Source of the DNA: Actinomycetota bacterium
GTDB lineage: Bacteria; Actinomycetota; Thermoleophilia; Gaiellales; Gaiellaceae
Reading direction: 5' to 3'
Length of the DNA: 64,000 nt
Assembly (NCBI GenBank): GCA_003162055.1
Contig: PMNA01000005.1
Location: forward strand, 1 to 64,000
Part shown: piece after piece, positions 11,056 through 36,060 of the stretch
How the letters are laid out: the number at the start of each line of letters is the position of its first letter
Position numbering within the stretch: position 1 is the first letter of the stretch
The notes under the pieces: model-generated
The model's database searches: none
Told to the model about the DNA's origin: nothing
The model's input: only the letters and a program-made list of their open reading frames with translations
Translations under genes and position numbers: made by a program

Positions 11056-11277
11056 CGCCATCCAGCCCAGCGGCGAACCTAGCTCCCTGAGCGGCATCCG
11101 AGGAACTCCATAAACGCCCCAGTCTCGACGCACTGGCCGTCCGCTCGCGGCGCGAGCGGACGGCAGCTCGAAGCCGCGCCCTAGTTCGCGACCAAAAGCG
11201 AACGACGAACCGGTCATCCGCGTCGCCTAGGATGGACATGTTCGGTCCGGACATGTCGGCAGAGAGTGCAGGGCCCT
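11056..11277 (+). promoter_or_regulatory. Leader of the hsd operon with GGACATGT repeats
   Basis: The intergenic region ahead of hsdM contains GGACATGT at 11234-11241 and again at 11249-11256. Each contains the palindrome ACATGT and they are 15 bases apart, an arrangement suited to binding of a dimeric regulator. The pair lies 22-44 bases upstream of the hsdM start, where it would overlap a promoter or leader. The regulator is unknown; the HTH protein encoded just upstream is one candidate. Confidence 0.45.
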
Positions 11278-13677
11278 ATGGCGTTGAAGAAATCTGAGCT
11301 ATACAGCTCGCTTTGGAGCAGCTGCGACGAGCTACGCGGCGGCATGGACGCCAGCCAGTACAAGGACTACATCCTCGTTCTGCTCTTCATCAAGTACGTC
11401 AGCGACAAGTACGCAGGCGTGCCGTTTGCGCCGATCAAGATTCCTATTGGCGGCGGATTTGCGGGGATGGTCTCGCTTAAGGGCACGAGCGACATTGGTG
11501 ATCAGATCAACAAGCGGATCATCGCCCCGCTCGCGAGCGCGAACAAGCTTTCCGACTTTCCGGACTTCAACGACGCCACGAAGCTCGGCAGCGGCAAGGA
11601 GATGGTCGACCGGCTGACCAACCTGATCGCCATCTTCGAGAACCCGGCGCTCGACTTTTCGAAGAACCAAGCCGAGGGCGACGACATTCTTGGCGACGCC
11701 TACGAGTACCTGATGCGGCACTTCGCCACCGAGAGCGGCAAGAGCAAGGGGCAGTTCTACACTCCGGCCGAGGTCAGCCGAATCATGGCGCAGGTCATCG
11801 GAATTCGCGAGGCGCAGACGTCCAACGACACCACCGTCTACGACCCGACCTGCGGCTCCGGCTCGCTGCTCTTGAAGGTTGGCGACGAGGCCAGCGCGGA
11901 CGTCACGCTCTATGGTCAGGAGAAGGACTCCGCCACCGCCAGCCTGGCGCGGATGAACATGATCCTGCACGACAATCCAACCGCGTTGATCGCGCGGGAC
12001 AACACTCTGACGAATCCGGAGTTCAAAGACGGAGACACGCTCAAGACTTTCGACTACGTCGTCGCCAATCCGCCCTTCTCGGACAAGCGTTGGAGCACCG
12101 GCCTCGATCCGCTCCACGACGCGTACGAGCGCTTCCAGCCCTTTGGAACGCCGCCCGCCAGGCAGGGCGATTACGCCTACCTCCTGCACATCATCCGCTC
12201 GCTCAAGAGCACCGGCTCGGGCGCCTGCATCCTGCCGCACGGGGTGCTCTTCCGCGGCAACGCCGAGGCCGAGATTCGGCGCAATCTCGTCCGCCGCGGC
12301 TACATCAAGGGCATCATCGGCCTGCCGGCCAACCTCTTCTACGGCACCGGCATTCCGGCCTGCATCGTGGTTGTCGACAAGCGTGACGCCCATGCCCGCA
12401 AGGCCGTGTTCATGATCGATGCCAGCCGGGGCTTCATGAAAGACGGCCCCAAGAACCGCCTGCGCGCCCAAGACATCCACAAGATCGTCGACGTATTCAA
12501 CCGGCGGCTCGAAGTCGACAAGTACTCGCGAATGGTGCCGGTCGAGGAGATCGAGCGGAACGAGTTCAACCTGAACCTGCCGCGCTATATCGATAGCCAA
12601 CAGCCGGAGGACATCCAGGACATCGAGGGCCACCTGCGCGGCGGCATCCCCGCCGCCGATATCGACGCGCTCCAGCGCTACTGGGACATCTGCCCGCAGC
12701 TCCGGCACACGCTGTTCAAGGAGAACCGTACCGGCTACCTCGATCTCGCCGTGGAGAAGGCGGCCATCAAACCCGCCATCTACGAGCACCCGGAGTTCGC
12801 GGCCTTCATCGCCGGCATGAACGACCATTTCGCCGCTTGGCGGCAGAGAAGCGTCGTGACGCTCAAGGCGCTGCAAGCCGGTTGCCATCCAAAGGAGGTC
12901 ATCGCGGCACTGGCCGAGAGCCTGCTCGCCCACTACGCCGACAAGCCGCTGATCGACGCTTACGACATCTACCAGCACCTCATGGACTACTGGGCCGAGA
13001 CGATGCAGGACGATTGCTACCTGATCGCCGCCGACGGCTGGAAGGCCGAGACTAGCCGCATCATCGAGAAAGACAAGAAGGGCAAGGAGAAGGACAAGGG
13101 CTGGACCTGCGACCTCGTCCCCAAGGCGCTCATCATCGCTCGCTATTGCGCCGAGGAGCAGGCAGCCATCGACCAGCTCACCGTCGAACTGGAGAGCGTC
13201 AGCGCCAGCCTCGTCGAGCTAGAGGAAGAGCAGAGCGGCGAAGACGGGGCATTCGCCGACTTCGAGAAGGTGGCGAAGGCCGGCGTCGCCACCCAGCTGA
13301 AGGAGATCAAAGGCGACGCGGATGCCAGAGACGAAGCCGCCGTGCTGAGCGACTGGCTGAAGCTCGAGAGCGAAAAGGTCGGACTGAAGAAGCGCCTCAA
13401 GGAAGCCGAAGCCGAGCTCGACGCCAAGGCTTGCGCCAGGTATCCGAAGCTCAGCGAGACCGAGATCAAGACGCTGGTGGTGGACGATAAGTGGCTCGCC
13501 GCGCTCGACGCCGCCATCCACGGCGAGATGGACAGCGTGAGCCAGCAGCTCACCCAGCGCGTGAAGGAGCTGGCCGAGCGCTACGAGACGTCTCTGCCGG
13601 AGATGGCCATCCATGTGGCCGAGCTGGAAGCCAAGGTGGACCATCACTTGGAGACGATGGGGTTCGAATGGAAGTGA
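11278..13677 (+). CDS. hsdM: Type I restriction-modification methyltransferase subunit
   Basis: This 799-residue protein is the N6-adenine methyltransferase subunit of a type I system. It has an N-terminal helical HsdM domain (residues 1-150), AdoMet-binding motif DPTCGSGSLL at 189-198 and catalytic NPPF at 264-267. A long C-terminal extension with charged helices (about 560-799) makes it larger than the usual 500-550 residues; this is known for one HsdM subgroup. It acts with two copies per HsdS to methylate the host recognition site. ATG 11278 was preferred to the GTG at 11266. Its end overlaps hsdS by 10 bases, so the two are coupled. Confidence 0.93.
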   Translation: MALKKSELYSSLWSSCDELRGGMDASQYKDYILVLLFIKYVSDKYAGVPFAPIKIPIGGGFAGMVSLKGTSDIGDQINKRIIAPLASANKLSDFPDFNDATKLGSGKEMVDRLTNLIAIFENPALDFSKNQAEGDDILGDAYEYLMRHFATESGKSKGQFYTPAEVSRIMAQVIGIREAQTSNDTTVYDPTCGSGSLLLKVGDEASADVTLYGQEKDSATASLARMNMILHDNPTALIARDNTLTNPEFKDGDTLKTFDYVVANPPFSDKRWSTGLDPLHDAYERFQPFGTPPARQGDYAYLLHIIRSLKSTGSGACILPHGVLFRGNAEAEIRRNLVRRGYIKGIIGLPANLFYGTGIPACIVVVDKRDAHARKAVFMIDASRGFMKDGPKNRLRAQDIHKIVDVFNRRLEVDKYSRMVPVEEIERNEFNLNLPRYIDSQQPEDIQDIEGHLRGGIPAADIDALQRYWDICPQLRHTLFKENRTGYLDLAVEKAAIKPAIYEHPEFAAFIAGMNDHFAAWRQRSVVTLKALQAGCHPKEVIAALAESLLAHYADKPLIDAYDIYQHLMDYWAETMQDDCYLIAADGWKAETSRIIEKDKKGKEKDKGWTCDLVPKALIIARYCAEEQAAIDQLTVELESVSASLVELEEEQSGEDGAFADFEKVAKAGVATQLKEIKGDADARDEAAVLSDWLKLESEKVGLKKRLKEAEAELDAKACARYPKLSETEIKTLVVDDKWLAALDAAIHGEMDSVSQQLTQRVKELAERYETSLPEMAIHVAELEAKVDHHLETMGFEWK

Positions 13678-14933
13678 AGCTCAGCCGCAAGCAGACCGAG
13701 GTCGGGTTGATCCCAGAAGATTGGGGCACTGGCCCCATTCGTTCGTTTGCAGAAGTTCGCGGAAGGGTTGGATGGAGGGGCTACACGAAGAAAGATCTCG
13801 TGGCATACGGTCCATACGCGATTGGCGCTAAACATATAGACAGCAGTAATCGGTTGGACCTTTCAGAACCCACTTGTATATCGCGGTCGAAATACGTCGA
13901 GTCTCCAGAGATCATGGTGTGCACTGGGGATGTCCTGATCGTTCAGCGAGGAACAATCGGAAAGCTAGTTCTGGTTGACCGGCCCATTGGCGACGCGACG
14001 ATAAACCCAAGCATGGTCATCATCAGAACCCACAAAGTCTCGCCCAGGTTCGTCGCGTACTACCTGCTGTCGCATTCGGGGCAGAGGCAAATCCTCGCTG
14101 ACACATCGACCACCGGCGTTCCGATGATCAGCCAACGGCAGATAGAGAGCTTTCTAGTCCCTCTCCCACCCACCAAAGCCGAGCAAGAAGCCATCGCCGA
14201 GGCGTTGGGTGATGCGGATGCCCTCATCGAATCCCTGGAGCGGCTCGTCGCTAAGAAGCGCCAGCTCAAACAAGGCGCCATGCGGGAATTGCTCACCGGC
14301 AAGAAGCGCCTACCTGGCTTCAGTGGGAAGTGGGAGGTGAAGCGGCTGGGAACAATTGGCGATATCTCAAGCGCTGGCGTTGACAAGAAAAGCCGCCCCG
14401 GCGAAACCCCGATTCGGCTAGTGAACTACCTCGACGTTTATCGAAAGGACTTCCTTTATTCAGATGACCCGTGTCAGTGGGTCACAGCTCCGCCGCTTCA
14501 AGCAAGACGATGCTCGGTTAAAAAGGGCGACGTTTTCTTCACTCCATCTTCGGAGACACGAGACGACATCGGTATATCAGCCGTCGCGATGGAAGACATT
14601 CCTGATGCGGCTTACAGCTACCACGTTGTCCGGTTGCGCTTAACAGAACAGTGGGATTTACGCTTCCGCAACTATGCATTCAAGACCCGGGCGTTTCTCG
14701 ATCAAGCAGAGACGCTCTGCGACGGGAGCGGCACACGCTACGTCATTTCACAGGACAAGTTCAAGGGCATGACGGTGAATGTTCCGTGTATACGCGAGCA
14801 AACCGCTATCGCCACGATTCTCTTCGACATGGACGCCGAGATCGCCGGGTTGGAAACCAAACTCGCCAAGACCCGCCAGCTCAAGCAGGGAATGATGCAG
14901 GAACTCCTCACCGGCAGGATTCGGCTCGTATGA
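13668..14933 (+). CDS. hsdS: Type I restriction-modification specificity subunit
   Basis: The 421-residue product has the duplicated architecture of HsdS. Each half is a target-recognition domain followed by a coiled-coil spacer: PTKAEQEAIAEALGDADALI..KRQLKQGAMRELLTGK in the first half and REQTAIATILFDMDAEIAGL..RQLKQGMMQELLTGR in the second. The opening QTEVGLIPEDW is the family's N-terminal signature. It determines the bipartite DNA sequence recognised by the HsdM and HsdR subunits; the site cannot be read from sequence. ATG 13668 overlaps the hsdM end; GTG 13675 is out of frame. Its TGA overlaps the hsdR ATG (ATGA). Confidence 0.92.
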   Translation: MEVKLSRKQTEVGLIPEDWGTGPIRSFAEVRGRVGWRGYTKKDLVAYGPYAIGAKHIDSSNRLDLSEPTCISRSKYVESPEIMVCTGDVLIVQRGTIGKLVLVDRPIGDATINPSMVIIRTHKVSPRFVAYYLLSHSGQRQILADTSTTGVPMISQRQIESFLVPLPPTKAEQEAIAEALGDADALIESLERLVAKKRQLKQGAMRELLTGKKRLPGFSGKWEVKRLGTIGDISSAGVDKKSRPGETPIRLVNYLDVYRKDFLYSDDPCQWVTAPPLQARRCSVKKGDVFFTPSSETRDDIGISAVAMEDIPDAAYSYHVVRLRLTEQWDLRFRNYAFKTRAFLDQAETLCDGSGTRYVISQDKFKGMTVNVPCIREQTAIATILFDMDAEIAGLETKLAKTRQLKQGMMQELLTGRIRLV

Positions 14934-17900
14934 GCGATGTCGGCAAGCCCGAGCGCGTCACGCAAGACCGTGTCATCTCGCTCTTCTGCGGTGAGCTGGA
15001 ATACGACTACCTCGGCGATTGGAGTGACGGCGACCGCAACTCCAACCTCGAAGAGGCGCAGCTTCGGAATTACCTGTCCGGGCGCGGCTACACCTCCGAG
15101 CAGATCAACGTAGCCCTCCACAAGCTGCGCAGCGAGGCGAACAATCACAGCCGGGGGCTGTACGAGAACAACAAGGCCGTCTACAGCCTGCTGCGCTACG
15201 GCGTGCCGGTGAAGATCGAGGCGGGCAAGGTCACCGAGACCGTTCACCTGATCGACTGGAACGCTCCGAAGAAAAACGACTTCGGCATCGCCGAGGAAGT
15301 CACGCTGCGCGGCGGTAGCGAGCGACGGCCCGACATCGTGCTCTATGTGAACGGCATCGCCGTCGGCGTGCTGGAGCTGAAGAAGAGCCGGGTGTCGATC
15401 GGCGAGGGTATCCGCCAGAACCTGTCCAATCAGCTGCCGGAGTTCAACGAGTGGTTCTTCTCGACCGTGCAGCTCGTCTTCGCCGGCAACGACTCCGAGG
15501 GCCTGAAATACGGCGCCATCGGCACGCCGGAGAAGTACTTCCTGGAGTGGAAGGAAGACGAGCTGGACAACAGCGGCTTCAAGCTGGACAAGTACCTGGC
15601 GAAGATCTGCGCCAAGCCGCGGTTGATCGAGCTGATGCACGACTTCGTGCTCTTCGACGGCGGCGTCAAGAAGCTGCCGCGGGCGCACCAGTACTTCGGC
15701 GTCAAGGCGGCCCAGCAGCACGCCCGCGAGCGCAAGGGCGGCATCATCTGGCACACGCAAGGCAGCGGCAAAAGTATCGTCATGGTGCTGCTGGCCAGGT
15801 GGATCCTGGAGAACAACCCGAACGCCCGCGTGGCGATCATCACCGACCGCGACGAGCTGGACAAACAGATCGAGCGGGTGTTCAGCGGCTCGGGCGAGGA
15901 TATCTATCGCACCAGCAGCGGCCGCGACCTGATGAGCCAGCTCGCCCAGGCCAAGCCGCGGCTGCTCTGCTCGCTGGTACACAAGTTCGGGCGCAAGGAC
16001 GTGGACGACTTCGACGCCTACCTCGAGGAGTTGAAAGCGCAGCCGAGCCAGACGGTCGGAGAGGTGTTCGTCTTCGTTGACGAGTGCCACCGGACCCAGA
16101 CCGGCAAGCTGCACCGCGTCATGAAAGCCCTAATGCCGAACGCCGTCTTCATCGGCTTCACCGGCACGCCGCTCCTGAAGAAGGACAAGAAGACCAGCCT
16201 GGAGGTCTTCGGTGGCTACATCCACACCTACAAGTTCAGCGAGGGTGTCGAGGACGGAGTCGTGCTCGATCTCGTCTACGAGGCGCGCGATATCGACCAG
16301 CGGCTTGGCTCCGAAGACAAGATCGACGCCTGGTTCGAGGCCAAGACCCGCGGCCTGAACGACTGGCAGAAGGAAGAGCTGAAGGCGCAGTGGGGCACGA
16401 TGCAGAAGGTGCTCAGCTCGAGGTCGCGGATGGAGCGGGTAGTAAGGGACGTCGTGTTCGATTTCAGCGTCAAGCCGCGTCTTTCCAGCGAGCGAGGCAA
16501 TGCGATCCTGGTGGCGTCGAGCATTTATGAGGCGTGCAGGTACTTCTCCCTGTTCCAGGAGACGCCGCTCAGGGGCAAGTGCGCGGTGGTGACCTCGTAC
16601 AACCCGCAGGCCGGTGACGTGAGCAAGGAAGAGGTCGGGGCGAACACCGAGACCGACAGGCAGCTCGTCTACAACACCTACACCCGGCTGCTCGAAGGCG
16701 TAACGGCCAAGCCGGGTATGAGCAAGACCGAGACCTACGAGGAGCGAGCGAAGGATCTGTTCGTCAAGGAGCCGGCGAACATGAGGCTGCTCGTGGTGGT
16801 GGACAAGCTGCTCACCGGATTCGACGCGCCGCCCTGCACCTACCTCTACATCGACAAGTCGATGCAGGACCACGGCCTGTTCCAGGCGATCTGTCGGGTC
16901 AATCGGCTGGACGGAGACGACAAGGTCTTCGGCTACGTCGTCGACTACAAGGATCTGTTCAAGAAGGTCGAGAACGCCGTCGCGGTTTATACCTCCGAGC
17001 TGGATCACAGCGCAGGCGGCGTCGAGCCGGAGGTGCTGATCCACGACCGGCTGAAGATAGGGCGCGAGCGCCTCGACAATGCGCTAGAGGTTCTGGCTCT
17101 GCTCTGCGAGCCGGTCGAGCCGCCGAAGGGCGAGCTGGAGCACATCCACTACTTCTGCGGCAACACCGAGATCGCGGAGGATCTGCAAGAGCGCGAGCCG
17201 AAGCGCGCCGCGCTCTACAAGGCGACGGTCACGCTGGTTCGCGCCTACGCCAACATCGCCGATGAGCTGGAAGCGGCGGGCTACGGCAATGAAGACATCA
17301 GCCGCATCAAATGGCAGCTCGAGCGCTACCTGAACATCCGCGAGATCATCCGCAGGGCCAGCGGCGAGAGCCTCGACTCGAAAGCCTACGAAGCCGACAT
17401 GAGGCACCTCATCGACACGTACATCGAGGCCGACGAGCCACGGAAGATCTCGCCGTTCGAGAACATCGGTCTGCTCGACTTGATCGTCAAGAGCGGGATC
17501 GGCGAGGCGGTTGCGGCCCAGCTCGGCGGCCTGAGAGGAGACAAGGACGCGATCGCCGAGACGATCGAAAACAACGTTAGACGCAAGATCATCGAAGAGC
17601 ATCTGAACGATCCGGCCTACTACGAGAAGATGTCGAAGCTGCTCGGCGAGATCATCTCGGCCCGGAAAGCCAAGGCGCTTGCCTACGAGGACTACCTGAA
17701 ACGGATCGCCGAGCTGGCGAAGCAGGTTGGGACAGGAACGTCGGACGAGACACCGAGGCGGCTGGACACGCGAGGGAAACGTGCCCTCTACAACAACCTC
17801 GATCAGAACGAAGAACTGGCGCTGGCGATCGACGAGACGGTGAGGACGATCCGCCCGGACGACTGGCGGGACATTCAGGCGCGCGAGAACACCATCAAGC

Positions 17901-17983
17901 AGGCGCTCCTGCCGTTACTCGGAAACGACGAAGCCGAAGTCGAGCGCATCTTCCCCATCATCAAGGCGCAGAGCGAGTACTGA
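14930..17983 (+). CDS. hsdR: Type I restriction endonuclease/translocase subunit
   Basis: This 1017-residue protein is the motor and nuclease of the type I complex. The N-terminal PD-(D/E)xK nuclease has Asp135 (RRPDIVLY) and Glu149-x-Lys151 (GVLELKKS). The SF2 motor has Walker A TQGSGKS at 276-282, DECH at 384-387, GFTGTPL and the C-terminal motor motif DKLLTGFDAP. A helical C-terminal domain (about 750-1010) would contact the methyltransferase. Unmethylated sites trigger ATP-driven translocation and distant cleavage. ATG 14930 overlaps the hsdS stop, so translation is coupled. All catalytic motifs are intact and no frameshift is seen, so the system appears functional. Confidence 0.94.
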   Translation: MSDVGKPERVTQDRVISLFCGELEYDYLGDWSDGDRNSNLEEAQLRNYLSGRGYTSEQINVALHKLRSEANNHSRGLYENNKAVYSLLRYGVPVKIEAGKVTETVHLIDWNAPKKNDFGIAEEVTLRGGSERRPDIVLYVNGIAVGVLELKKSRVSIGEGIRQNLSNQLPEFNEWFFSTVQLVFAGNDSEGLKYGAIGTPEKYFLEWKEDELDNSGFKLDKYLAKICAKPRLIELMHDFVLFDGGVKKLPRAHQYFGVKAAQQHARERKGGIIWHTQGSGKSIVMVLLARWILENNPNARVAIITDRDELDKQIERVFSGSGEDIYRTSSGRDLMSQLAQAKPRLLCSLVHKFGRKDVDDFDAYLEELKAQPSQTVGEVFVFVDECHRTQTGKLHRVMKALMPNAVFIGFTGTPLLKKDKKTSLEVFGGYIHTYKFSEGVEDGVVLDLVYEARDIDQRLGSEDKIDAWFEAKTRGLNDWQKEELKAQWGTMQKVLSSRSRMERVVRDVVFDFSVKPRLSSERGNAILVASSIYEACRYFSLFQETPLRGKCAVVTSYNPQAGDVSKEEVGANTETDRQLVYNTYTRLLEGVTAKPGMSKTETYEERAKDLFVKEPANMRLLVVVDKLLTGFDAPPCTYLYIDKSMQDHGLFQAICRVNRLDGDDKVFGYVVDYKDLFKKVENAVAVYTSELDHSAGGVEPEVLIHDRLKIGRERLDNALEVLALLCEPVEPPKGELEHIHYFCGNTEIAEDLQEREPKRAALYKATVTLVRAYANIADELEAAGYGNEDISRIKWQLERYLNIREIIRRASGESLDSKAYEADMRHLIDTYIEADEPRKISPFENIGLLDLIVKSGIGEAVAAQLGGLRGDKDAIAETIENNVRRKIIEEHLNDPAYYEKMSKLLGEIISARKAKALAYEDYLKRIAELAKQVGTGTSDETPRRLDTRGKRALYNNLDQNEELALAIDETVRTIRPDDWRDIQARENTIKQALLPLLGNDEAEVERIFPIIKAQSEY

Positions 17984-18699
17984 TGGTCACGCAGATTGAG
18001 TTGGGCGACATTGCCGTGGAGGTCGTACTCAAGGACATCAAGAACGTCCATCTAAGCGTTCACCCGCCGTCTGGTCGCGTTCGTATCTCGGCGCCGAAGC
18101 GCATGAGCATGGACACCATTCGCTCCTTCGCTGTCTCGAAACTCGGCTGGATCAAGAAACAGCAGGCGCGCCTCCAAGCGCAGGAGCGCGAGACCCGCCG
18201 AGAGTTTGTCGATCGCGAAAGTCACTTCGTTTGGGGGCGGCGCTATCTACTAAACGTCATCGAGGAAGAGCGAGCGCCAGCCGTCGCTCTGGAGCACGGT
18301 CGCATGCTCCTGACAGTTCGCCCGGGAGCAAATGAGGCGAGAAGGCGAGAAGTCGCAGAGGCTTGGTACCGCGAAGAGCTGAAGAAAGCCATCCCGCCAC
18401 TTCTCGCCAAGTGGGAGCCGCTGATCGGCGTCGGAGTGGAGCGCTTCTACGCGCAGCGAATGAAGACCAAGTGGGGAAGCTGCAATCCCTTAGCTCGCAG
18501 CATTCGCCTTAACACCGACCTCGCGAAGAAACCACGCGAATGCCTCGAGTACGTGGTCGTCCACGAGATGGTTCACATACTGGAGCCAACGCACAATGCC
18601 CGTTTCGTCGCGCTGATGGATCAGGCTATGCCGCAGTGGCGCGCATACAAGGAGCAGCTCAATCGGCTGCCTATTAGCCATGGCGCGTGGGGTTACTAA
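17983..18699 (+). CDS. YgjP/DUF45-like zinc metallopeptidase
   Basis: The 238-residue product belongs to the YgjP/SprT-like family (DUF45). The signature HEMVH lies at residues 194-198, with downstream LEPTHNARF giving a third likely zinc ligand, and WGSCNPLARSIRLN is the family's typical motif before it. The ATG overlaps the hsdR stop (TGATG), making it the fourth gene of the hsd operon. YgjP-family genes are repeatedly found with type I restriction systems. A role in controlling or turning over the restriction complex is an attractive inference but is not demonstrated by sequence. Confidence 0.8.
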   Translation: MVTQIELGDIAVEVVLKDIKNVHLSVHPPSGRVRISAPKRMSMDTIRSFAVSKLGWIKKQQARLQAQERETRREFVDRESHFVWGRRYLLNVIEEERAPAVALEHGRMLLTVRPGANEARRREVAEAWYREELKKAIPPLLAKWEPLIGVGVERFYAQRMKTKWGSCNPLARSIRLNTDLAKKPRECLEYVVVHEMVHILEPTHNARFVALMDQAMPQWRAYKEQLNRLPISHGAWGY

Positions 18700-22393: not shown

Positions 22394-22789
22394 TTAGCCC
22401 TCGTCACCCTGCCCGCCGGCCTGGCGCTCTCGCGCCCGCGCCCGGACCTGCTCGAATAACTCGCCGAGTCCGAGCTCGCCGCTCACCTCGACACGCTTCG
22501 TCCAGCGCTCCGGGTAGGCGTGCTGCAGCTTCCACGCAGCCGCTCGCCAGTTGCCCGCCTGCTCAGCCTGGACGAGGACGGCGACGCTGCGCATCTCGCC
22601 TTCGGCGCGCGCCTGCTCGACCGCGTCGGAAAAGTCGGAAAACTCCCTACGCCACTCGTTCAGTGTGTCCCGGTGGATGCCCGCGTAAGCGGCTGCGGTC
22701 TCGAGGTAGGCGCCGGTGCGGAGCGCGTCCAGGATCTTCTTCTCGACTTCTGGGTTGCGCTTGCTGGGGCGTCCGGGTCGCTTGCTCAT
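22394..22789 (-). CDS. Phage terminase small-subunit-like HTH protein
   Basis: The 131-residue product matches the pattern of small-terminase-like HTH proteins: GRPSKRNPEVEKKILDAL, then a helix-turn-helix (AAAYAGIHRDTLNEWRRE), a helical stretch (FSDAVEQARAEGEMRSVAVL) and AAWKLQHAYPERWTKR. In phages this type recognises packaging DNA. Its ATG overlaps the stop of the ParB-methyltransferase gene (ATGA). No large terminase follows on this strand; the next gene runs in the opposite direction, so packaging is unlikely to be intact and it may act as a regulator or be a remnant. Confidence 0.65.
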   Translation of the reverse strand: MSKRPGRPSKRNPEVEKKILDALRTGAYLETAAAYAGIHRDTLNEWRREFSDFSDAVEQARAEGEMRSVAVLVQAEQAGNWRAAAWKLQHAYPERWTKRVEVSGELGLGELFEQVRARARERQAGGQGDEG

Positions 22790-23973
22790 TGGGGCACGTA
22801 GTCGGACTGGCCGGTGAAGTCCGCATAGCGCTGACGGATCACGTCGCAGTAGCGCGGGTCGATCTCCATCAGGAAGGCGCGACGCTTGAGTTGGTCGGCT
22901 GCGATCAGGGTTGTGCCGGAGCCTGCGAAGAGATCGAGCACGAGGCCTCCTACAAGCGTGGAGTTGCCCAAGCAGTAGGAGACCAGCGCCTCCGGCTTCA
23001 TGGTCGGGTGTTCCTCGGATCGTTTCGGGCGATCGAAGTTGAGCACGCTCGACTGGCTGTGATCGCCGTGCCAGTGTGTCCCTTCATGGTTACCTCGTCC
23101 AGGTCGGCCACGGCCTGGCGCGTAGCCGTAGAAGATGGGTTCGTGTTGGTAGTGGTAATCACTGTGACCGAGAACGAACACGTCCTTCACCCAAACGAGT
23201 TCCTGGTGCAAGCGCCAACCAGCGTCGACGAGAGATTGCGCGTAGGCGGGCATTCGCGGTCCCGCCGGGCCCGCGCAGTAGAAAGGGGCACCGTCAACTA
23301 CCACAGCGAGCGCGTTCTCGAAGGACGTTCGGACGAGTGCTGAGGCGTCGCCTGCGTCTCCCCTGATGGTGAGGGCTTTCTTAGTCCCGCCGACATAGGA
23401 AACGCCATAGGGCGGATCTGTCCAGATGCAGTCCGCTTGCTCACCTCCCATTAAGAGCGTCAAATCCTCGGTCTTCGTCGCGTCCCCGCACATGAGCCGG
23501 TGTGGCCCCAGCTCGTACAGCTCGCCCTGTCGCGACTTCGGCTCGGCTGGAAGCTCTGGAGCCTCGTCCGGATCCCGCGCCGCTTGTGCGAGCGGGCGCA
23601 AGAGGTCATCGAGGAATTCGGGCGCGAAGCCGGTCAGCTCTAGCTCGACTCCGTCAGTCGCCAGCTCGGCCAGGAACTCGGGCAAGAGATCCGTGTCCCA
23701 CTCGCCGTAGCCGTTGTTGTCCCGGAGCACCCAAGTGCGGGCTCTTACATCGTCTAGCTCGACGTAGAGCGTAGGGATCGTCTGCCAGCCCAGCTCCTGG
23801 GCTGCCCGCAGGCGCATGTTGCCGCAGATCACCCGGCCGTCTGGTAGCGCGATCAGCGGCCTCGCCTCGAGCATATCCGGGTCTTTTGTAAGCGAGCGCT
23901 TGAGCGCGTCCAGCCGCTCGGCGCCGATCCGGCGCGGGTTACGCGCATACTCGCGCAGTCGGGACAGCTCCAC
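22786..23973 (-). CDS. ParB-like domain fused to DNA methyltransferase
   Basis: The 395-residue product joins an N-terminal ParB/sulfiredoxin-like domain (ELSRLREYARNPRRIG, VICGNMRLRAAQELGW, VLRDNNGYGEWD) to a beta-class N6/N4 DNA methyltransferase with catalytic DPPY (IWTDPPYGVSYVGG), EEHPTMKPEAL and AdoMet motif DLFAGSGTTL. This fusion is common in phages and integrative elements, where it modifies element DNA. The GTG at 23973 gives a start just before ELSRL, but the upstream in-frame sequence (SGRPRVVDV) also looks coding back to about 24090, so the true N-terminus may be longer (see findings). It is translationally coupled to the HTH gene downstream. Confidence 0.82.
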   Translation of the reverse strand: MELSRLREYARNPRRIGAERLDALKRSLTKDPDMLEARPLIALPDGRVICGNMRLRAAQELGWQTIPTLYVELDDVRARTWVLRDNNGYGEWDTDLLPEFLAELATDGVELELTGFAPEFLDDLLRPLAQAARDPDEAPELPAEPKSRQGELYELGPHRLMCGDATKTEDLTLLMGGEQADCIWTDPPYGVSYVGGTKKALTIRGDAGDASALVRTSFENALAVVVDGAPFYCAGPAGPRMPAYAQSLVDAGWRLHQELVWVKDVFVLGHSDYHYQHEPIFYGYAPGRGRPGRGNHEGTHWHGDHSQSSVLNFDRPKRSEEHPTMKPEALVSYCLGNSTLVGGLVLDLFAGSGTTLIAADQLKRRAFLMEIDPRYCDVIRQRYADFTGQSDYVPQ

Positions 23974-24425: not shown

Positions 24426-25442
24426 TCATGGCGTCCAAGGACCATCGACGGATACGCTGGCCGATGCCACATTGGGAAATGGGATCGAGCTGACACCAAT
24501 CTCTATATCGAAGCCGATGCTAGTTCCCGCCGGTACGTCCGCATCCGGATAGGTGATATCGCCGCCGACTATTTTCCCTGAGGCATCAAAGACCACTGCC
24601 GAGATCTCCGTCGTCAGCGAGACGACTGCCCCGGTGGTGTTCGACAGTTCCCCGACAACATGCAGCCCATTGAACCCGTTGTCCTGAGAGAAGGCGACAT
24701 TAGTGATCGAGGGGAGTGCAACACTCTTGTACACGCTCTGCCCGGTCTGGACGATGAGTTGGAGCGCCGTGACCGTTCCGGGGCGCGATGGCCAGGCGTC
24801 GTCACCAAGGTAGAAGTGGGAACTCGGGTTAATAACATGGATGTACTCAGTGTCTGTGCCGAGGATCAGGTTCGAGGCGTCGAGCATGTTGACGGTGACG
24901 GTCGTATCGGCGGCGGCGGCATCGGGGGAGGTGTTCTCTAGCACTGCTCCCCACGACACGTCGGTCTCGCCCGTCGCGTACGGGTCGGCGACGGCCGTGA
25001 AGCCATCCTGGTCAACAACGATTTTCGCCGGCTCGGGGACGGGCGCCGCAGCAACGACCTTGAAGCCGAGGAGCGTCCTGCCCGAGTCGGCGGAGAGCTT
25101 GAGCCGATAACTACCAACCTTGATCGACTTACCGGCGAAGACCTTCTTGACGGTCGTCGATTTGGAGCCCTTGAAGCTTCCGTTCTTCTTGACGCTCTTG
25201 ACCGTCTGCCACTTGGAGCCCTTCTTGAAGCTGAGCAGGTAGGAAAACCGCGTGCTCTTTGCCGAGAACTTGTAGATGAGCTTGACGGAGCCTGCCTGCG
25301 AACTCTTGAAGCTCGTCTTCGTTAGGTGGGCGGAGATCCTCGCTGCGGAGGCTTTGCTAGAGGTAGCGCCAGCGAGACTGCAGGTACCAACAAGCGCCAG
25401 GGCGCAGATCGAGCCGACGAGGAAGCGCGAGAGGAATCCCAC
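24426..25442 (-). CDS. Secreted protein, shared N-domain, C-domain type 1
   Basis: The 338-residue product has a signal peptide (FLVGSICALALVGTCSLAGA, cleavage near residue 26) and a Lys/Ser-rich beta domain (about 30-130: AHLTKTSFKSSQAGSVKLIY, FKKGSKWQTVKSVKK). The C-terminal domain (about 135-338) has an Ig/fibronectin-like look (VSWGAVLENTSPDA, VPAGTSIGFDIEIG). The N-terminal 130 residues and their DNA are nearly the same as in the gene at 29627-30661, but the C-terminal halves are unrelated. The GTG at 25442 was used. An extracellular, possibly surface-associated role is inferred; I do not know its function. Confidence 0.7.
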   Translation of the reverse strand: MGFLSRFLVGSICALALVGTCSLAGATSSKASAARISAHLTKTSFKSSQAGSVKLIYKFSAKSTRFSYLLSFKKGSKWQTVKSVKKNGSFKGSKSTTVKKVFAGKSIKVGSYRLKLSADSGRTLLGFKVVAAAPVPEPAKIVVDQDGFTAVADPYATGETDVSWGAVLENTSPDAAAADTTVTVNMLDASNLILGTDTEYIHVINPSSHFYLGDDAWPSRPGTVTALQLIVQTGQSVYKSVALPSITNVAFSQDNGFNGLHVVGELSNTTGAVVSLTTEISAVVFDASGKIVGGDITYPDADVPAGTSIGFDIEIGVSSIPFPNVASASVSVDGPWTP

Positions 25443-25650
25443 CCGCCTAGCCTACGCCTGTCCGCTTCGGCCATCTAGGCAGAGAGCACGGGAAGCCCTA
25501 GGCTCTCGCTCAGGCCGACCCGGAAGCACCCTCGCTAGCAGGTGCTCGTCCGTCTCGGTCAAGGCCGCGAAGAGGGCTCCGACGGGAGCCCTCTTTCGTT
25601 TCTTTGGGAGAAGGAGTAGACAAGAGGCAACGGTTTTCCCGCGGAGGAGG
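25060..25650 (+). repeat. Duplicated module, copy 1
   Basis: This stretch is repeated in direct orientation at about 30280-30870. It spans the first about 130 codons of the minus-strand secreted gene, the intergenic structured element, and the GGAGGTATC ribosome-site region before the plus-strand gene. Similarity is high in the coding part and lower but clear between genes, where GCCTACGCCTGTCC, GGCCATCTAGGCA, CGACCCGGAAGC and GGCCGCGAAG are shared. Boundaries are estimated by eye. Confidence 0.75.
25525..25605 (+). ncRNA. Putative structured RNA with terminator, copy 1
   Basis: Two hairpins are visible. The first is AGCACC (25525-25530) with GGTGCT (25541-25546); the second is a 10-bp stem AGAGGGCTCC (25571-25580) with GGAGCCCTCT (25585-25594) closed by GACG and followed by TTCGTTTCTTT, an intrinsic-terminator form on the plus strand. 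In copy 2 (30744-30825) both stems are kept by paired changes. It lies about 60 bases upstream of the plus-strand gene at 25656, so it could be a cis-acting leader/attenuator or the 3' end of a small RNA. The upstream limit may reach about 25455. Confidence 0.55.
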
Positions 25651-25655
25651 TATCG

Positions 25656-25994
25656 ATGCGTCGTGTCGTTCTAATCGTCGCTGTCGCTCTGGCGCTCGTA
25701 GTAACGGCGGCAGCTTCAGCGAGCGTTCGTCTTGTCTCTAAAACATCGTCAGTCAAAGCGGGCGCGAAGGCGACACTGACTGTCAAGGTGAGCCCGTCTC
25801 AGCGTTGCTCGATCAGCGTCTACTACAAGACTGTCGTATCGAAGGCGAAAGGTCTGAACAAGAAAACGCCGAAAGGCGGGCGCGTTACTTGGACGTGGAA
25901 TGTCGGAAGCAACACGACCTCAGGGCGGCACCGTATCGTCGTTTCGTGCGGCTCGGCCGGGAAGCTGAACACTTCGTTCGTCACGACGCGATAA
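25656..25994 (+). CDS. Small secreted beta-rich protein
   Basis: The 112-residue product begins with a signal peptide (MRRVVLIVAVALALVVTAAASASV, cleavage after ASA near residue 22). The mature part has alternating hydrophobic residues typical of an Ig-like beta sandwich (SSVKAGAKATLTVKVSPSQ, GRVTWTWNVGSNTTSGRHRI), with two cysteines that could form a disulfide. The ATG at 25656 follows a strong GGAGGAGG ribosome site. It is preceded by the terminator-like RNA element and followed 13 bases later by the secreted nuclease gene, so the two may form an operon. No specific function is known. Confidence 0.72.
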   Translation: MRRVVLIVAVALALVVTAAASASVRLVSKTSSVKAGAKATLTVKVSPSQRCSISVYYKTVVSKAKGLNKKTPKGGRVTWTWNVGSNTTSGRHRIVVSCGSAGKLNTSFVTTR

Positions 25995-26007: not shown

Positions 26008-26700
26008 GTGGTGAGACGTTGGTACGCGATGATCGCCGTTGCCCTGACGTTCGGGCTAGCGGTCGCGATTTCAAGCGCTAGTTCGGCACCGCCAGGCGCG
26101 ACCGCCCGCTGTTACGACGGCACCTACAGCTACTCGCAGCACCGACAGGGAACTTGTTCTCACCACGGCGGCGTCGCCGTTTGGCTGAACGGAGGCTCGA
26201 CCGCGACCAAGAAGAGTTCCGGCGCAAGCGCCGGGACAGTCGATGTCGGCAAGACGGTGCTGCTCAAGAAGCGGTCAAAGACCTCGGGTTGCAAACTCGG
26301 GCCGAACCCTGACCGGCGCTGCTCGCCCGGCGCCTACTACTCAAAGCTCACGAAGGCCGTTATCTGCTCTTCGAGCTTCCACACGGGCTCGATCCGGAAC
26401 GTCCCGCAGTCTGAGAAATACGCCGTCGAAACGGAGTACGGGATGGCAGAGAAGCTCTACGGCCGCACGCTAGAGATCGACCACATCATCTCGCTCGAGC
26501 TCGGTGGCTCTAACGACATCGCGAACCTGTACCCGGAGAGAGCGAGCCCCGCTCCCGGCTACCACGTGAAAGACAAGCTAGAGAACAAGCTCCACAGCCT
26601 CGTTTGCTCAGGGCAGATGACCCTCAGTAGCGCCCGCGTCGGGATCGCTTCGAACTGGCAGAAGCTCTACCGCACGGTGTACGGGACGGCTCCCGCTTAG
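26008..26700 (+). CDS. Secreted HNH nuclease with DUF3761-like domain
   Basis: The 230-residue product has a signal peptide (about 1-27), then a DUF3761-like motif (ARCYDGTYSYSQHRQGTCSHHGGVAVWL, shortened here to CYDGTYSYSQHRQGTCSHHG), a linker, and a C-terminal HNH-type nuclease signature, EIDHIISLELGGSNDIANL, giving His and Asn ligands for a beta-beta-alpha metal site. Extracellular nucleic-acid degradation is the likely activity. GTG at 26008 follows a GGGAGGG ribosome site. It runs in the same direction as the preceding secreted gene and its stop overlaps that of the convergent HEPN-like gene by 4 bases. Confidence 0.78.
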   Translation: MVRRWYAMIAVALTFGLAVAISSASSAPPGATARCYDGTYSYSQHRQGTCSHHGGVAVWLNGGSTATKKSSGASAGTVDVGKTVLLKKRSKTSGCKLGPNPDRRCSPGAYYSKLTKAVICSSSFHTGSIRNVPQSEKYAVETEYGMAEKLYGRTLEIDHIISLELGGSNDIANLYPERASPAPGYHVKDKLENKLHSLVCSGQMTLSSARVGIASNWQKLYRTVYGTAPA

Positions 26701-29626: not shown

Positions 29627-30661
29627 CTAGCCCGGCAGTGTCGGGGTGCGTACGCTAGACGGTAAGCGAGCCACTACGGCTGTTTGCGCCGAGATCGCAC
29701 TCGCATATTTAACGACAGAGCACTCAAAGTGATCGCAATAGAAGATGAACTTAGCCGTGACAACGACACGGATGGTGGAGCCGACATCTGCGAGAACGAG
29801 AGTGTAAGAGTTCGATGTTGCGCCCGGGATTTCCGAGCAGCTCACACCGAAGCTGTCACAGCGGCTCCACTGGTAGGCATACGAGAGAGGTGTGTAATAC
29901 CAGGAGCCGGTCGAAGAAGCGAGCGTCTGACCCTGAGTGGTGCTGCCCGAGATGATCGGAACGGTGTTCGGAATCGGCGGCACAATGGAGACGACCGCCG
30001 TATGGATCGAGGTGGCGATCGCCGAGCCATAGGAGTTCCGGGCCGTGACGACGAAGCGGATGGTGGAGCCAACGTCGGCAGCCTTGAGGATGTAGTGCCT
30101 TGAGATTGCAAGCGAGATGTCAGAGCAGGCCGCACCGGAGTGGTTACAGCGGCGCCAGTCGATAATGTGCGAAGTTGGCGAGTTGCTCCAAACGCCGATT
30201 ATGGCAGTGAGCTCCTGGCCCTCCGCAGTCGCGCCCAAGATGATCGGACGAGAGGTGTTAGTGGGCTTGTTGCCCACTTTGAAGCTGAGGAGCTTTCTCC
30301 CTCCGTCGGCGGAGAGCTCGAGCCGATAGCGACCGACCTTGACCGGCTTCCCCGCGAAGACCTTCCTGACGGTCATCGATTTGGAGCCCTTGAAGGTTCC
30401 TTTCTTCTTGACGCTCTTGACCGTCCGCCACTTGGGACCCTTCTTGAAGGTGAGCAGGTAGCCGAAGCTTTTGCTCGTAGCCGAGAAGCTGTAGATGAGC
30501 TTGACCGCGCCTGCCTGTGAACTCTTGAAGCTCGTCTTAGTCAGATGGGCAGAGATCCTGGCACTGGAGGCTTTGCTAGACGCAGCGCCAGCGAGACCGC
30601 CGGTGTCGACAAGCGCTAGGGCGCAAATCGAGCTGACGAGGAAGCGCGAGAGGAATCCCAC
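29627..30661 (-). CDS. Secreted protein, shared N-domain, two Ig-like repeats
   Basis: The 344-residue product has a signal peptide (GFLSRFLVSSICALALVDTG) and the same about 130-residue N-terminal domain as the gene at 24426-25442. Its C-terminus is different: two Ig-like repeats of the actinobacterial type, each with a G-x-W core, a W-R-R-C or W-S-R-C motif and A-D-V-G-S-T-I-R (about 140-230 and 235-325). Such repeats occur in extracellular adhesive or wall-associated proteins. The GTG at 30661 matches the paralogue's start. The pair is a clear case of domain exchange after duplication. Confidence 0.75.
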   Translation of the reverse strand: MGFLSRFLVSSICALALVDTGGLAGAASSKASSARISAHLTKTSFKSSQAGAVKLIYSFSATSKSFGYLLTFKKGPKWRTVKSVKKKGTFKGSKSMTVRKVFAGKPVKVGRYRLELSADGGRKLLSFKVGNKPTNTSRPIILGATAEGQELTAIIGVWSNSPTSHIIDWRRCNHSGAACSDISLAISRHYILKAADVGSTIRFVVTARNSYGSAIATSIHTAVVSIVPPIPNTVPIISGSTTQGQTLASSTGSWYYTPLSYAYQWSRCDSFGVSCSEIPGATSNSYTLVLADVGSTIRVVVTAKFIFYCDHFECSVVKYASAISAQTAVVARLPSSVRTPTLPG

Positions 30662-30870
30662 CCACACAGCCTACGCCTGTCCACTGAGGCCATCTAGGCA
30701 CGGAGCTGCCGATCGTCTAGCCTCGCCAGTAGGTCGACCCGGAAGCGCTCTAGCTAGCGAGCGCTCGACCGTCTTGGCTTAGGCCGCGAAGGGGACTCCG
30801 ACGGGAGTCTTCTTTCGTTTCTCAGGGAGACAGACTGGAACGAGGCTAGTTCCTGCTGGATATGGAGGTA
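30280..30870 (+). repeat. Duplicated module, copy 2
   Basis: This is the direct repeat of about 25060-25650, described there. In this copy GGAGGTATC (30864-30872) is not followed by a start codon at the right distance, so the downstream gene (ATG 30895) uses another site. Similarity ends on the left where the Ig-like repeats begin, giving the point of domain exchange near 30270-30290. Confidence 0.75.
30744..30825 (+). ncRNA. Putative structured RNA with terminator, copy 2
   Basis: The stems of copy 1 are kept: AGCGCTC (30744-30750) with GAGCGCT (30759-30765), and AGGGGACTCC (30790-30799) with GGAGTCTTCT (30804-30813), closed by GACG and followed by TTCGTTTCTC. Compared with copy 1, two pairs in the first stem change A-T to G-C and C-G to T-A, and one pair in the second changes G-C to A-T, while two others become G-U. 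All pairs are kept. The element lies about 80 bases upstream of the plus-strand gene at 30895. Confidence 0.55.
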
Positions 30871-30894: not shown

Positions 30895-31980
30895 ATGCAT
30901 GTGTGTCTTAGGCGCGGTCTGTCGGTCATCGCCGCCGTGTTCGTCGCGGCCATTGCCGCTCCGCAGGCGGTTGCGTCGTATGGGATAGTCGGCTTCTCTC
31001 CCGGCGACGGGGAGACAGTCACGACAAAGACTCCGACCTTCACGATCTCCACCGCCGGATTCGACGCGTCCTCCGCCGACGCGAATCCGTGGGTTGCGGT
31101 TTCGACGAGCTTCCAGGTCGGTACGGACGGGACGCTTGCGAACACCTTCGGGTGCTTGTTCGACGCGACGCCAACAGGGCCGAGCTCGAGCACATATGTG
31201 GCTGCTGCGGACGCGGTTAGTTGGACATATTGCTCGCTTAACTCTGGCGCTACGTACTATTGGCAGATCTGGTTCTACACGGCGAGTCCGAGTTCGGTAG
31301 ACACGCCACTAGTTACCTGTAGCGGCGCCACATGTCACACGAAAGTAATGACGCTCGTTGTGGCACAAACCGCGCCCGATTTCACCCTTGCCGCCGCGCC
31401 AGTTGATGCGACCGTGGATGCTCCGGGCTCAGCCTCCTACACGATTGCTGCCTGGGCGCTGAACGGTTTCGACAGTACGATCAACCTCACGGTGGCGGGT
31501 GTGCCAACCGGCGCATATTCCTCATGGTCGCCCGTGTCAGGCGGCCAGACACTCAATATCTCGGTGCCGCGCAACGCTGTTCGTGGCACGTACCCGCTGA
31601 CCGTCACCGGCAATGGTGGCGGTATCACGCACTCGGTGGGTCTATCGCTAACCATCGTTCCAGCGAAGCCCATAGTTGCCGCGCCGCCCGACGTAAAGCG
31701 GCCAACTGTGCGTGCGTTTCGCGCGACCGCGAAGCTGGGGAAGTTGGTGCGGCTCAAGTACTTCGTAAGCGACAACTCTGGTAGGGCGAAAGTGACGGTC
31801 AGTGTCTTTAAGGGGAAGAAGAGGATTGCTCGACACGTCTCCCAGCTGGGCTCGCTCCCCCGTCACCACTCGTACGCGTGGCGCGCGTCCAAGCGCGGCC
31901 GCTTCAAATTCTGTGTGATCGCCCGCGACGCAGCCGGAAACAAGAGCGCCATGAAGTGCGCCCGCGTGACCGTCAAGTAA
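30895..31980 (+). CDS. Secreted Ig/fibronectin-like protein
   Basis: The 361-residue product has a signal peptide (GLSVIAAVFVAAIAAPQAVA) and a mature region of beta domains. The first (about 30-165) starts with FSPGDGETVTTKTPTFTIS and contains a cysteine pair; the second (about 165-255) resembles a DUF11/Ig-like fold (ASYTIAAWALNGFDSTINLT); the third (about 265-361) is a basic fibronectin/Ig-like repeat ending FCVIARDAAGNKSAMKC. It is exported and probably wall- or matrix-associated. ATG 30895 has only a modest GGAAG ribosome site. It lies downstream of structured RNA copy 2, as the gene at 25656 lies after copy 1. Confidence 0.75.
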   Translation: MHVCLRRGLSVIAAVFVAAIAAPQAVASYGIVGFSPGDGETVTTKTPTFTISTAGFDASSADANPWVAVSTSFQVGTDGTLANTFGCLFDATPTGPSSSTYVAAADAVSWTYCSLNSGATYYWQIWFYTASPSSVDTPLVTCSGATCHTKVMTLVVAQTAPDFTLAAAPVDATVDAPGSASYTIAAWALNGFDSTINLTVAGVPTGAYSSWSPVSGGQTLNISVPRNAVRGTYPLTVTGNGGGITHSVGLSLTIVPAKPIVAAPPDVKRPTVRAFRATAKLGKLVRLKYFVSDNSGRAKVTVSVFKGKKRIARHVSQLGSLPRHHSYAWRASKRGRFKFCVIARDAAGNKSAMKCARVTVK

Positions 31981-34565: not shown

Positions 34566-34597
34566 ATGGGCCGTGCAGGAATCGAACCTGCGACCTT
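34566..34597 (-). mobile_element. Diverged copy of the tRNA-Lys 3' end (att-like)
   Basis: On the minus strand this reads AAGGTCGCAGG, TTCGATT, CCTGCACGGCCCAT, i.e. the T-arm and acceptor 3' strand of a tRNA-Lys. It differs from the 3' end of the intact tRNA-Lys at 35989-36060 at three of 32 positions, two of which compensate in the T-stem. The rest of a tRNA is missing. With the intact tRNA it brackets the integrase gene, as expected for attachment-site duplicates. Confidence 0.65.
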
Positions 34598-34687
34598 CTA
34601 TTCGCGCTGCACTACCTCAAAGCAGCTGTCGTGGTAGAACCTCTTCTGTCGCGAATCATTGCCCCGCAGCGCTTACAAACGCGCCCG

Positions 34688-35887
34688 CTAAAGCGGGAAC
34701 ACGCCGGCGAGCTTCTCGGCCTGCGACTTCTCCGCCGTCCGCGCCCAGGAGCCGTACGTGTCTACCGTGAGCGTGATCGACGAGTGTCCGAGCTGCCGTT
34801 GCACCCACACGATCTCGGCGCCGCCCTCTAGCGCGATGCGGGCGAAGGAGTGTCGGAACGAGTGGAAGTCGCGCTTGCGGCCGCGCTCGCCCATGCGCGG
34901 GATGCCGGCCCGTTTGAGCGCCGGGTAGAGCACCTGCCGGGTCACGTAGCTCGAGCTCAGGTGGCCGCCCTGCTCGCGTTCGAACACGAGCCCATCGTCG
35001 CCGCTCTCGGCGTACCAGCGCTCGAGCAGCGCCGCCGCTTGTGGCGTCAGGTCGACGGTGCGGGGTTCGTTCGACTTGGTCGTTTGTTCGCCGATCCCGT
35101 CGACGAACGTGCGGGCGACATGCAGCTCGCGGTTGAGCAGGTCGACGTCCGTCCAGCGGAGCGCCGCCAGCTCGCCGGAGCGCAGCCCGGTCGCGACCGC
35201 GGTCTTGCAGAGCGCGAGCATAACCGGCCGACAGGCGAGCTCCGGCCAGAGGCGAGCGAGCTCGTCGTCGGTGTAGTAGACGGGCCGGCTCTTCGCGACC
35301 TTCGGCCGCGCCGTCTTGTGCAGCAGCCGGACCGGATTCTCGTGCGCGTAGCCCTCGCTGATCGCCGCCTGCAGGCAGGCGCCGAGCTGGCGCAGGTGCT
35401 TCGCCAAGGTCGCGGGCGAAACCTCCGGCGGCGGTCCGTCCTCGGGCCGCCTTTTGCGCGAGCGGCGCTTGCGGTTGTCGGCGCGGATCAGGTCGAGGAA
35501 GTGGCGCACGTCTGTCGCGGTCAGGTCGCGCACCTTCGCCCGGCCGAACGCGTGCTTGGCGTACGCGATCGTCGAGCTGTAGGAGCGGACACTGTTTGCC
35601 TTCCCCGTGAACGACTCGAGCCACTGGTCCGCCCACTTGTCGAAGGGGATGTCCTCGAGCACTCGGTAGGTGCGTCGGGCGATGTCGCCGCGGCGCGCGT
35701 CGAGCGCCCGCTCGGCCTCTTTTCGGTTGTGGCCGACCGGCTCGCGGATCAGTCGGCCGCTGCTGCGAAGGACGACGTGATAGAGCGGCGTACAGGTGCA
35801 GCCCTGCTGCTTGGTCGCCTCGGCGAACGTCGTCCAGGGACGCTTCAGCCGGCAGCTGCGGGAGTGGCGGGCTTGGAGACTGGCCAT
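34688..35887 (-). CDS. int: Tyrosine recombinase/phage-type integrase
   Basis: The 399-residue product is a tyrosine integrase. An N-terminal arm-binding region (about 1-75) and a core-binding SAM-like domain (about 80-190, with WADQWLESFTGKANSVRSY) precede the catalytic domain with Arg236 (ATGLRSGELAALRW), His342-x-x-Arg345 (FHSFRHSF), His368 (QLGHSSITLT) and nucleophile Tyr378 (VDTYGS). All catalytic residues are present. It lies 101 bases from the 3' end of the intact tRNA-Lys, with a diverged tRNA 3' copy on its other side. The ATG at 35887 was used; GTG at 35890 is adjacent. No excisionase is next to it. Confidence 0.93.
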   Translation of the reverse strand: MASLQARHSRSCRLKRPWTTFAEATKQQGCTCTPLYHVVLRSSGRLIREPVGHNRKEAERALDARRGDIARRTYRVLEDIPFDKWADQWLESFTGKANSVRSYSSTIAYAKHAFGRAKVRDLTATDVRHFLDLIRADNRKRRSRKRRPEDGPPPEVSPATLAKHLRQLGACLQAAISEGYAHENPVRLLHKTARPKVAKSRPVYYTDDELARLWPELACRPVMLALCKTAVATGLRSGELAALRWTDVDLLNRELHVARTFVDGIGEQTTKSNEPRTVDLTPQAAALLERWYAESGDDGLVFEREQGGHLSSSYVTRQVLYPALKRAGIPRMGERGRKRDFHSFRHSFARIALEGGAEIVWVQRQLGHSSITLTVDTYGSWARTAEKSQAEKLAGVFPL

Positions 35888-35988
35888 CACGGAGAACCTG
35901 AGCCAAGTGTACGTCCCCTGGTACGCACACGCCAGTTTTAGCGCAACCGCTGAAACAAAAGAGCCGCTGTTTGCGGCTCTTTCAAGAT

Positions 35989-36060
35989 GGGCCGTACAGG
36001 ATTCGAACCTGTGACCTTGGGATTAAAAGTCCCCTGCTCTACCAACTGAGCTAACGGCCC
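35989..36060 (-). tRNA. tRNA-Lys(TTT)
   Basis: The minus strand reads GGGCCGTTAGCTCAGTTGG, then TAGAGCAGGGGACTTTTAAT, and T-arm ACAGGTTCGAATCCTGT with acceptor ACGGCCC. The seven-base acceptor stem GGGCCGT/ACGGCCC pairs fully and the anticodon loop CTTTTAA has anticodon TTT. CCA is not encoded. One outer anticodon-stem pair is G-A. The integrase lies past its 3' end, so this gene is the probable attachment site, restored by the element. Confidence 0.93.

Follow-up and report, generated by a model that had tools for sequence, protein, structure and literature searches.

Genes and features of the locus

The window, that is, the whole 64,000-nt stretch of DNA analysed, contains two copies of a plus-strand element, copy 1 at 25511-25605 and copy 2 at 30730-30825. 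Each is a putative leader ending in a predicted intrinsic terminator, with a predicted promoter upstream, a plus-strand gene for a secreted protein downstream, and another secreted-protein gene encoded divergently on the minus strand (Table 1). The genome to which the window belongs (G000; 2.16 Mb in 34 contigs) is apparently a MAG, and the kinds of protein that it encodes point to Thermoleophilia.

The first ~134 amino acids of the minus-strand product beside copy 1 are 77% identical to those of the neighbour of copy 2 and of a third paralog in the same genome (G000:C14). The N-terminal ~130 amino acids of these minus-strand genes have 15 matches in their own genome and are common to many proteins of the genus, in which the C-terminal parts vary. 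On the plus strand, neither the product of 25656..25994 nor that of 30895..31980 matches any Pfam or PHROG family. The DUF3761 protein encoded second after copy 1 has a C-terminal half that, by eye, is HNH-like.

With regard to the wider window, a tyrosine integrase gene (34688-35890, minus strand) lies between a tRNA-Lys gene (35988-36060, minus strand) and a short tRNA-like 3'-end sequence near 34567-34600 that has the look of a duplicated attachment site. This arrangement, together with the genes for a terminase small subunit (22394-22789, minus strand) and a ParB-methyltransferase (22786-23973, minus strand), suggests an integrated phage-like island that makes up the left part of the window. 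The genes at 11266-13677 and 14651-17983 and a metalloprotease-like ORF (17983-18699) look, by eye, like a type I restriction-modification cluster (11266-18699).

Table 1. Features at the two copies; RNA and promoter features are predictions.
Feature	Position	Strand	Basis or remark
Secreted-protein gene, 338 aa, minus-strand neighbour of copy 1	24426..25442	-	ORF; GTG 6 nt after the -10 box, leaderless
-10 box TAGGCT of the minus-strand gene, copy 1 (earlier block AGCCTACGCC)	25449..25454	-	6/6 between copies 1 and 2
Plus-strand promoter, upstream box TTCGGCCATC and -35 TAGGCA (earlier block GGCCATCTAGGCA), copy 1	25466..25481	+	Pattern search
Plus-strand -10 box TAGGCT, copy 1	25499..25504	+	17 nt from the -35; predicted start near 25511
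5' structured domain of the leader, copy 1	25513..25560	+	P1 25513-25518 with 25555-25560, P2 arms within
Intrinsic terminator, stem-GACG-stem and T-rich tail, copy 1	25567..25605	+	-25.2 kcal/mol, z -4.8
Conserved box GGGAGAAGGAGTAGACAAGAGGCAAC after the terminator, copy 1	25606..25631	+	Four loci, three genomes
Small secreted-protein gene downstream of copy 1	25656..25994	+	ORF
Secreted DUF3761 protein, second gene downstream of copy 1	26008..26700	+	Pfam PF12587, E 1.6e-17
Secreted-protein gene, paralog beside copy 2	29627..30667	-	ORF
-10 box TAGGCT of the minus-strand gene, copy 2	30668..30673	-	Conserved with copy 1
Plus-strand promoter TAGGCA - 17 nt - TAGCCT, copy 2	30695..30723	+	
5' structured domain of the leader, copy 2	30732..30779	+	Fold and alignment
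Intrinsic terminator, copy 2	30786..30825	+	-19.5 kcal/mol, z -3.2
Secreted-protein gene downstream of copy 2	30895..31980	+	ORF

Distribution of the copies

There are exactly two copies in genome G000, and genuine copies are present in three of the six genomes of the genus. The full copy L022 and a second copy without the 5' half (L039) are in G002, and G001 has one split, decayed copy (L023/L040); no copy was found in the same-genus genomes G003-G005. The plus-strand gene that follows is for a DUF3761 protein alone at L022 and for a collagen-like protein at L039. Outside the genus no genuine copies were found by a search of 101 relatives, by a covariance model over 103 genomes of the family, or by an order-wide BLAST search of 129 genomes with the L022 leader, which returned matches only in G000, G001 and G002. 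Two distant covariance-model matches that were inspected (L044 and L046) were rejected as different GC-rich hairpins in unrelated surroundings. Viral contigs had no match to two copy-derived patterns or to the post-terminator box; a looser pattern matched two of them, both without the hairpin. The covariance model detected no leader at the DUF3761 homologs of other genera.

Among 4227 Rfam families, none scored above its gathering threshold in the window except one tRNA, and the relaxed threshold gave chance-level matches only, none of them relevant. The absence of a match to a riboswitch family, reported in an earlier sequence-only reading of the locus, therefore holds against Rfam.

Compensatory changes between the two copies

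The sequence-only reading had aligned 25525-25605 with 30744-30825 and described two stems kept across three double compensatory changes, with a shared GACG loop and T-rich tail. The alignment is correct, the loop and tail are common to both copies, and the changes are as described: A-T to G-C and C-G to T-A in the first stem, and G-C to A-T in the second, where an A-T and a G-C pair have also become G-U. Copies 1 and 2 differ at 19 of 95 positions. Their identity is 77% in the leader and 88% in the hairpin, compared with 41% in the promoter spacer and 11 of 12 positions in the promoter hexamers.

For the chance test, pairs were defined from the fold of a single copy, and the substitutions seen between the copies were redistributed at random 20,000 times. 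In both directions, double compensatory changes outnumber the expectation, with four observed against 0.74 expected from copy 1 to copy 2 (p = 0.0018), and three against 0.63 from copy 2 to copy 1 (p = 0.013). The plain count of pairs kept is not significant in the same test (p = 0.15 and 0.13, respectively). It is also to be considered that L022 has the states of copy 2 at the double changes, and these changes therefore represent few lineage events rather than many independent ones.

The fold is stronger on the plus strand than on the minus strand in both copy 1 (z = -5.2 vs -4.2) and copy 2 (z = -2.15 vs -0.94). The G-U pairs can form on the plus strand only, being A-C on the minus strand. 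A minus-strand RNA was rejected on account of the weaker fold and these mismatches.

Terminator hairpin and 5' domain

The features of an intrinsic terminator are present in the sequence, namely a GC-rich stem-loop that folds better than its shuffles and a T-rich tract on the transcribed strand. Directly after the stem the tail reads TTTCGTTTCTTT, an interrupted T tract that has no counterpart on the minus strand. The L022 terminator has a comparable fold (-21 kcal/mol, z -3.2). The terminators lie 50-75 nt before the start codons of genes of differing kinds, which bears out the earlier description of a plus-strand terminator form placed before plus-strand genes.

Across four copies, 98.2% of the cells of the terminator stem are paired, and two of its pairs have changed on both sides; pair 67-80, for example, is G-C in copy 1 and L039, and A-U in copy 2 and L022. 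When the 3' partners are slid by one to three columns, overall pairing falls from 94% to 40-51%. The flanks of the hairpin are less conserved than the hairpin itself, and the stem is decayed in G001. The predicted plus-strand terminator is judged to be real and under selection, and to this extent the earlier proposal of selection on RNA structure stands, given the excess of double changes and the pairing of the stem in the four copies.

The 5' domain is less secure than the 3' terminator stem. Here 89.6% of cells are paired, and both partners have changed in two pairs. The P1/P2 fold, including two covarying pairs, is kept in three copies (copies 1 and 2 and L022), and 75-81% of the leader sequence, loops included, is kept across the three. 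Several of its 16 pairs are, however, broken in L022, and the domain is broken or missing at the other loci. In L039 the 5' arms and the -10 box are absent, so that the domain is half-deleted, and in G001 it is replaced by a collagen-like gene lying between the promoter block and the terminator. The 5' stem is doubtful as a general feature of the copies. The collagen-like gene of G001 (L080:4890-5622) has its own ribosome-site region, and the arrangement suggests cassette-like insertion or loss of a gene at the site.

Divergent promoters and the post-terminator box

The upstream blocks GCCTACGCC and GGCCATCTAGGCA had been considered a possible sensor part of the RNA. This assignment is rejected on the grounds of the promoter hexamers, their 17-nt spacing, and a third paralog without the RNA; both blocks are better described as elements of two divergent promoters. 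GCCTACGCC corresponds to the -10 of the minus-strand gene, which is leaderless; on that strand AGCCTACGCC gives the hexamer TAGGCT, and the GTG codons of the secreted-protein genes encoded there follow 6 nt after it. This hexamer is identical in copies 1 and 2, compared with one position of six in L022, where there is no minus-strand gene. The third paralog (L141 on G000:C14) has the same GGCGTAGGCT before its GTG and no RNA element.

GGCCATCTAGGCA ends in TAGGCA, and TAGGCT or TAGCCT follows exactly 17 nt on, giving the consensus TAGGCA-17-TAGNCT. The plus-strand promoter looks to be under selection, because between copies 1 and 2 the spacer is only 41% identical but the hexamers agree at 11 of 12 positions. 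A search of the genus for the pattern with a TANNNT-like -10 gave six matches, among them one with a single altered -10 position and one weaker match with three mismatches; the reversed control gave none. TAGGCA-17-TAGTCT also occurs before an unrelated gene in G001:C10 (L170, G001:C10:32503-32541, with TTCGGCCATCTAGGCA-17-TAGTCT). Possibly the upstream box is the mark of a regulon that has an activator or sigma factor to itself.

Beyond the terminator, the box GAGARGGAGTARACAWRGGGCAA is kept at copy 1, L022, L039 and L023 and has diverged in copy 2; its reversed control gave no match. It contains AAGGAG, and no start codon follows. The box may be a promoter or an operator. By eye, no TANNNT -10 box is found between the terminator and the start codon in copy 1, L022, L039 or L023. 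The downstream genes may therefore depend on read-through, which speaks for a leader in which read-through is restricted by the terminator.

Interpretation

The preferred reading, to which we assign a rough probability of 0.45, is that each copy is a plus-strand 5' leader with an intrinsic terminator that exerts attenuator-type control over the downstream secreted-protein gene or genes. RNA polymerase would start at the TAGGCA-17-TAGNCT promoter, near 25511 in copy 1 and 30730 in copy 2, and the leader of ~50 nt would fold as P1/P2. Transcription would mostly stop at the GC-rich hairpin and T-rich tail ~90 nt from the start, and the gene 50-75 nt further on would be reached only by read-through transcripts, the extent of which may be regulated. 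The two copies in the window arose by duplication of the divergent promoter region plus the start of the minus-strand gene.

In support of attenuation, the terminator folds far better than shuffles and its stem is kept in four copies, and the promoter has retained its hexamers at a distance of 17 nt despite divergence of the spacer. The layout, with a promoter upstream and a terminator before the start codon, is the expected one, but the -10 box is lost in L039. Against it are the few copies, confined to a single genus, and the state of the 5' domain, which is imperfect in L022, half-missing in L039 and replaced by the collagen-like gene in G001; moreover, the post-terminator box could itself be a promoter or an operator. 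Folds with the 3' arm of the terminator withheld disagree among the copies and give no common antiterminator, and neither a conserved upstream ORF nor a ligand class was found for the leader. A leader peptide was rejected, as no start codon is common to the copies, and copy 1 alone has one (GTG) in the frame that runs through the hairpin.

It is somewhat unlikely that the hairpin is instead an insulating or leftover terminator, which ends transcription coming from upstream, for example from a collagen-like gene as in G001. The promoter, leader and terminator of copies 1 and 2 and L022 would then be the remnant left by the loss of such a gene, or an insertion site, and the downstream genes would use a non-canonical promoter of their own in the conserved box. 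In G001 the same predicted promoter indeed drives the collagen-like gene, with the terminator directly after its stop codon; this gene has its own ribosome-site region as other collagen-like genes do, however, so that insertion fits better than an ancestral state, and the terminator stem there is decayed. In L039 terminator and box are retained although the leader's 5' half and the -10 are missing, and the box is retained at four loci whatever gene is downstream; both are consistent with insulation, but in copies 1 and 2 the upstream gene is divergent and there is nothing upstream to terminate, and their hexamers and leader are conserved while the spacer drifts.

It is unlikely that the element encodes a stand-alone small RNA, ~90 nt long and with promoter and terminator to itself, that acts elsewhere in the cell. 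The ~90-nt distance between the two signals, the stable and partly covarying fold between them, and the conservation of the leader with its loops would suit such an RNA, but its position is always directly before a plus-strand gene, L039 retains the terminator without the -10 and half of the RNA, and three of the six genomes of the genus and all others searched are without it. That RNA-level function is lacking altogether, pairing having survived by chance in two diverged duplicates of a promoter region, is highly improbable: the number of kept pairs is not significant and the double changes are few lineage events, but those changes are more than chance gives (p = 0.002-0.013), 98% of the cells of the terminator stem are paired across four copies, and conservation is higher in the hairpin than in its flanks.

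Returning to the attenuator-type leader, it looks like a small, genus-specific on/off device and a familiar kind of control, not a new class. A stronger version is quite doubtful, namely that it is a new genus-specific, riboswitch-like or protein-responsive attenuator of Thermoleophilia-like actinobacteria, duplicated and re-used before several secreted-protein genes of a genomic island, with P1/P2 as the putative sensor. Should the leader prove to work as an attenuator, it would join the few regulatory RNAs described in a poorly cultivated actinobacterial group, and would show a promoter-plus-terminator leader copied between secreted-protein genes within a genomic island. As it stands, the locus is a solid but ordinary case of terminator-bearing leaders, and the assignment of the supposed sensor blocks is usefully corrected to two divergent promoters.

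Comparison with known systems

The hairpins have the GC-rich stem, tetraloop and T-rich tail, on the plus strand only, of intrinsic (Rho-independent) terminators. Unlike the usual intrinsic terminators, which follow genes, they lie between a promoter and a gene start, except in G001.

Leaderless genes and -10 boxes of the TANNNT type are familiar from actinobacteria and have been mapped in Mycobacterium tuberculosis (PMC3898074). The TAGGCT box predicted 6 nt before the GTG of the minus-strand genes resembles the leaderless TANNNT promoters of that species, and the plus-strand TAGNCT, likewise predicted from sequence, resembles its TANNNT -10 (PMC3898074).

The closest parallel to the whole arrangement is the attenuator in the rpfB 5' UTR of M. 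tuberculosis, the likeness being one of layout, with no sequence relatedness claimed (PMC6009663). The rpfB leader is a proposed RNA switch, whose termination and alternative antiterminated fold are backed by mutants, reporters, 3' RACE/3' ends and in vitro transcription (PMC6009663). It differs in this alternative fold from copies 1 and 2, for which no shared antiterminator fold was found and which are described from their sequence only. In common, the rpfB leader and the two copies are actinobacterial, are restricted to a narrow clade, have no known ligand, and carry an intrinsic terminator before a secreted-protein gene (PMC6009663). The two copies are attenuator-like in layout, and are putative members of that class.
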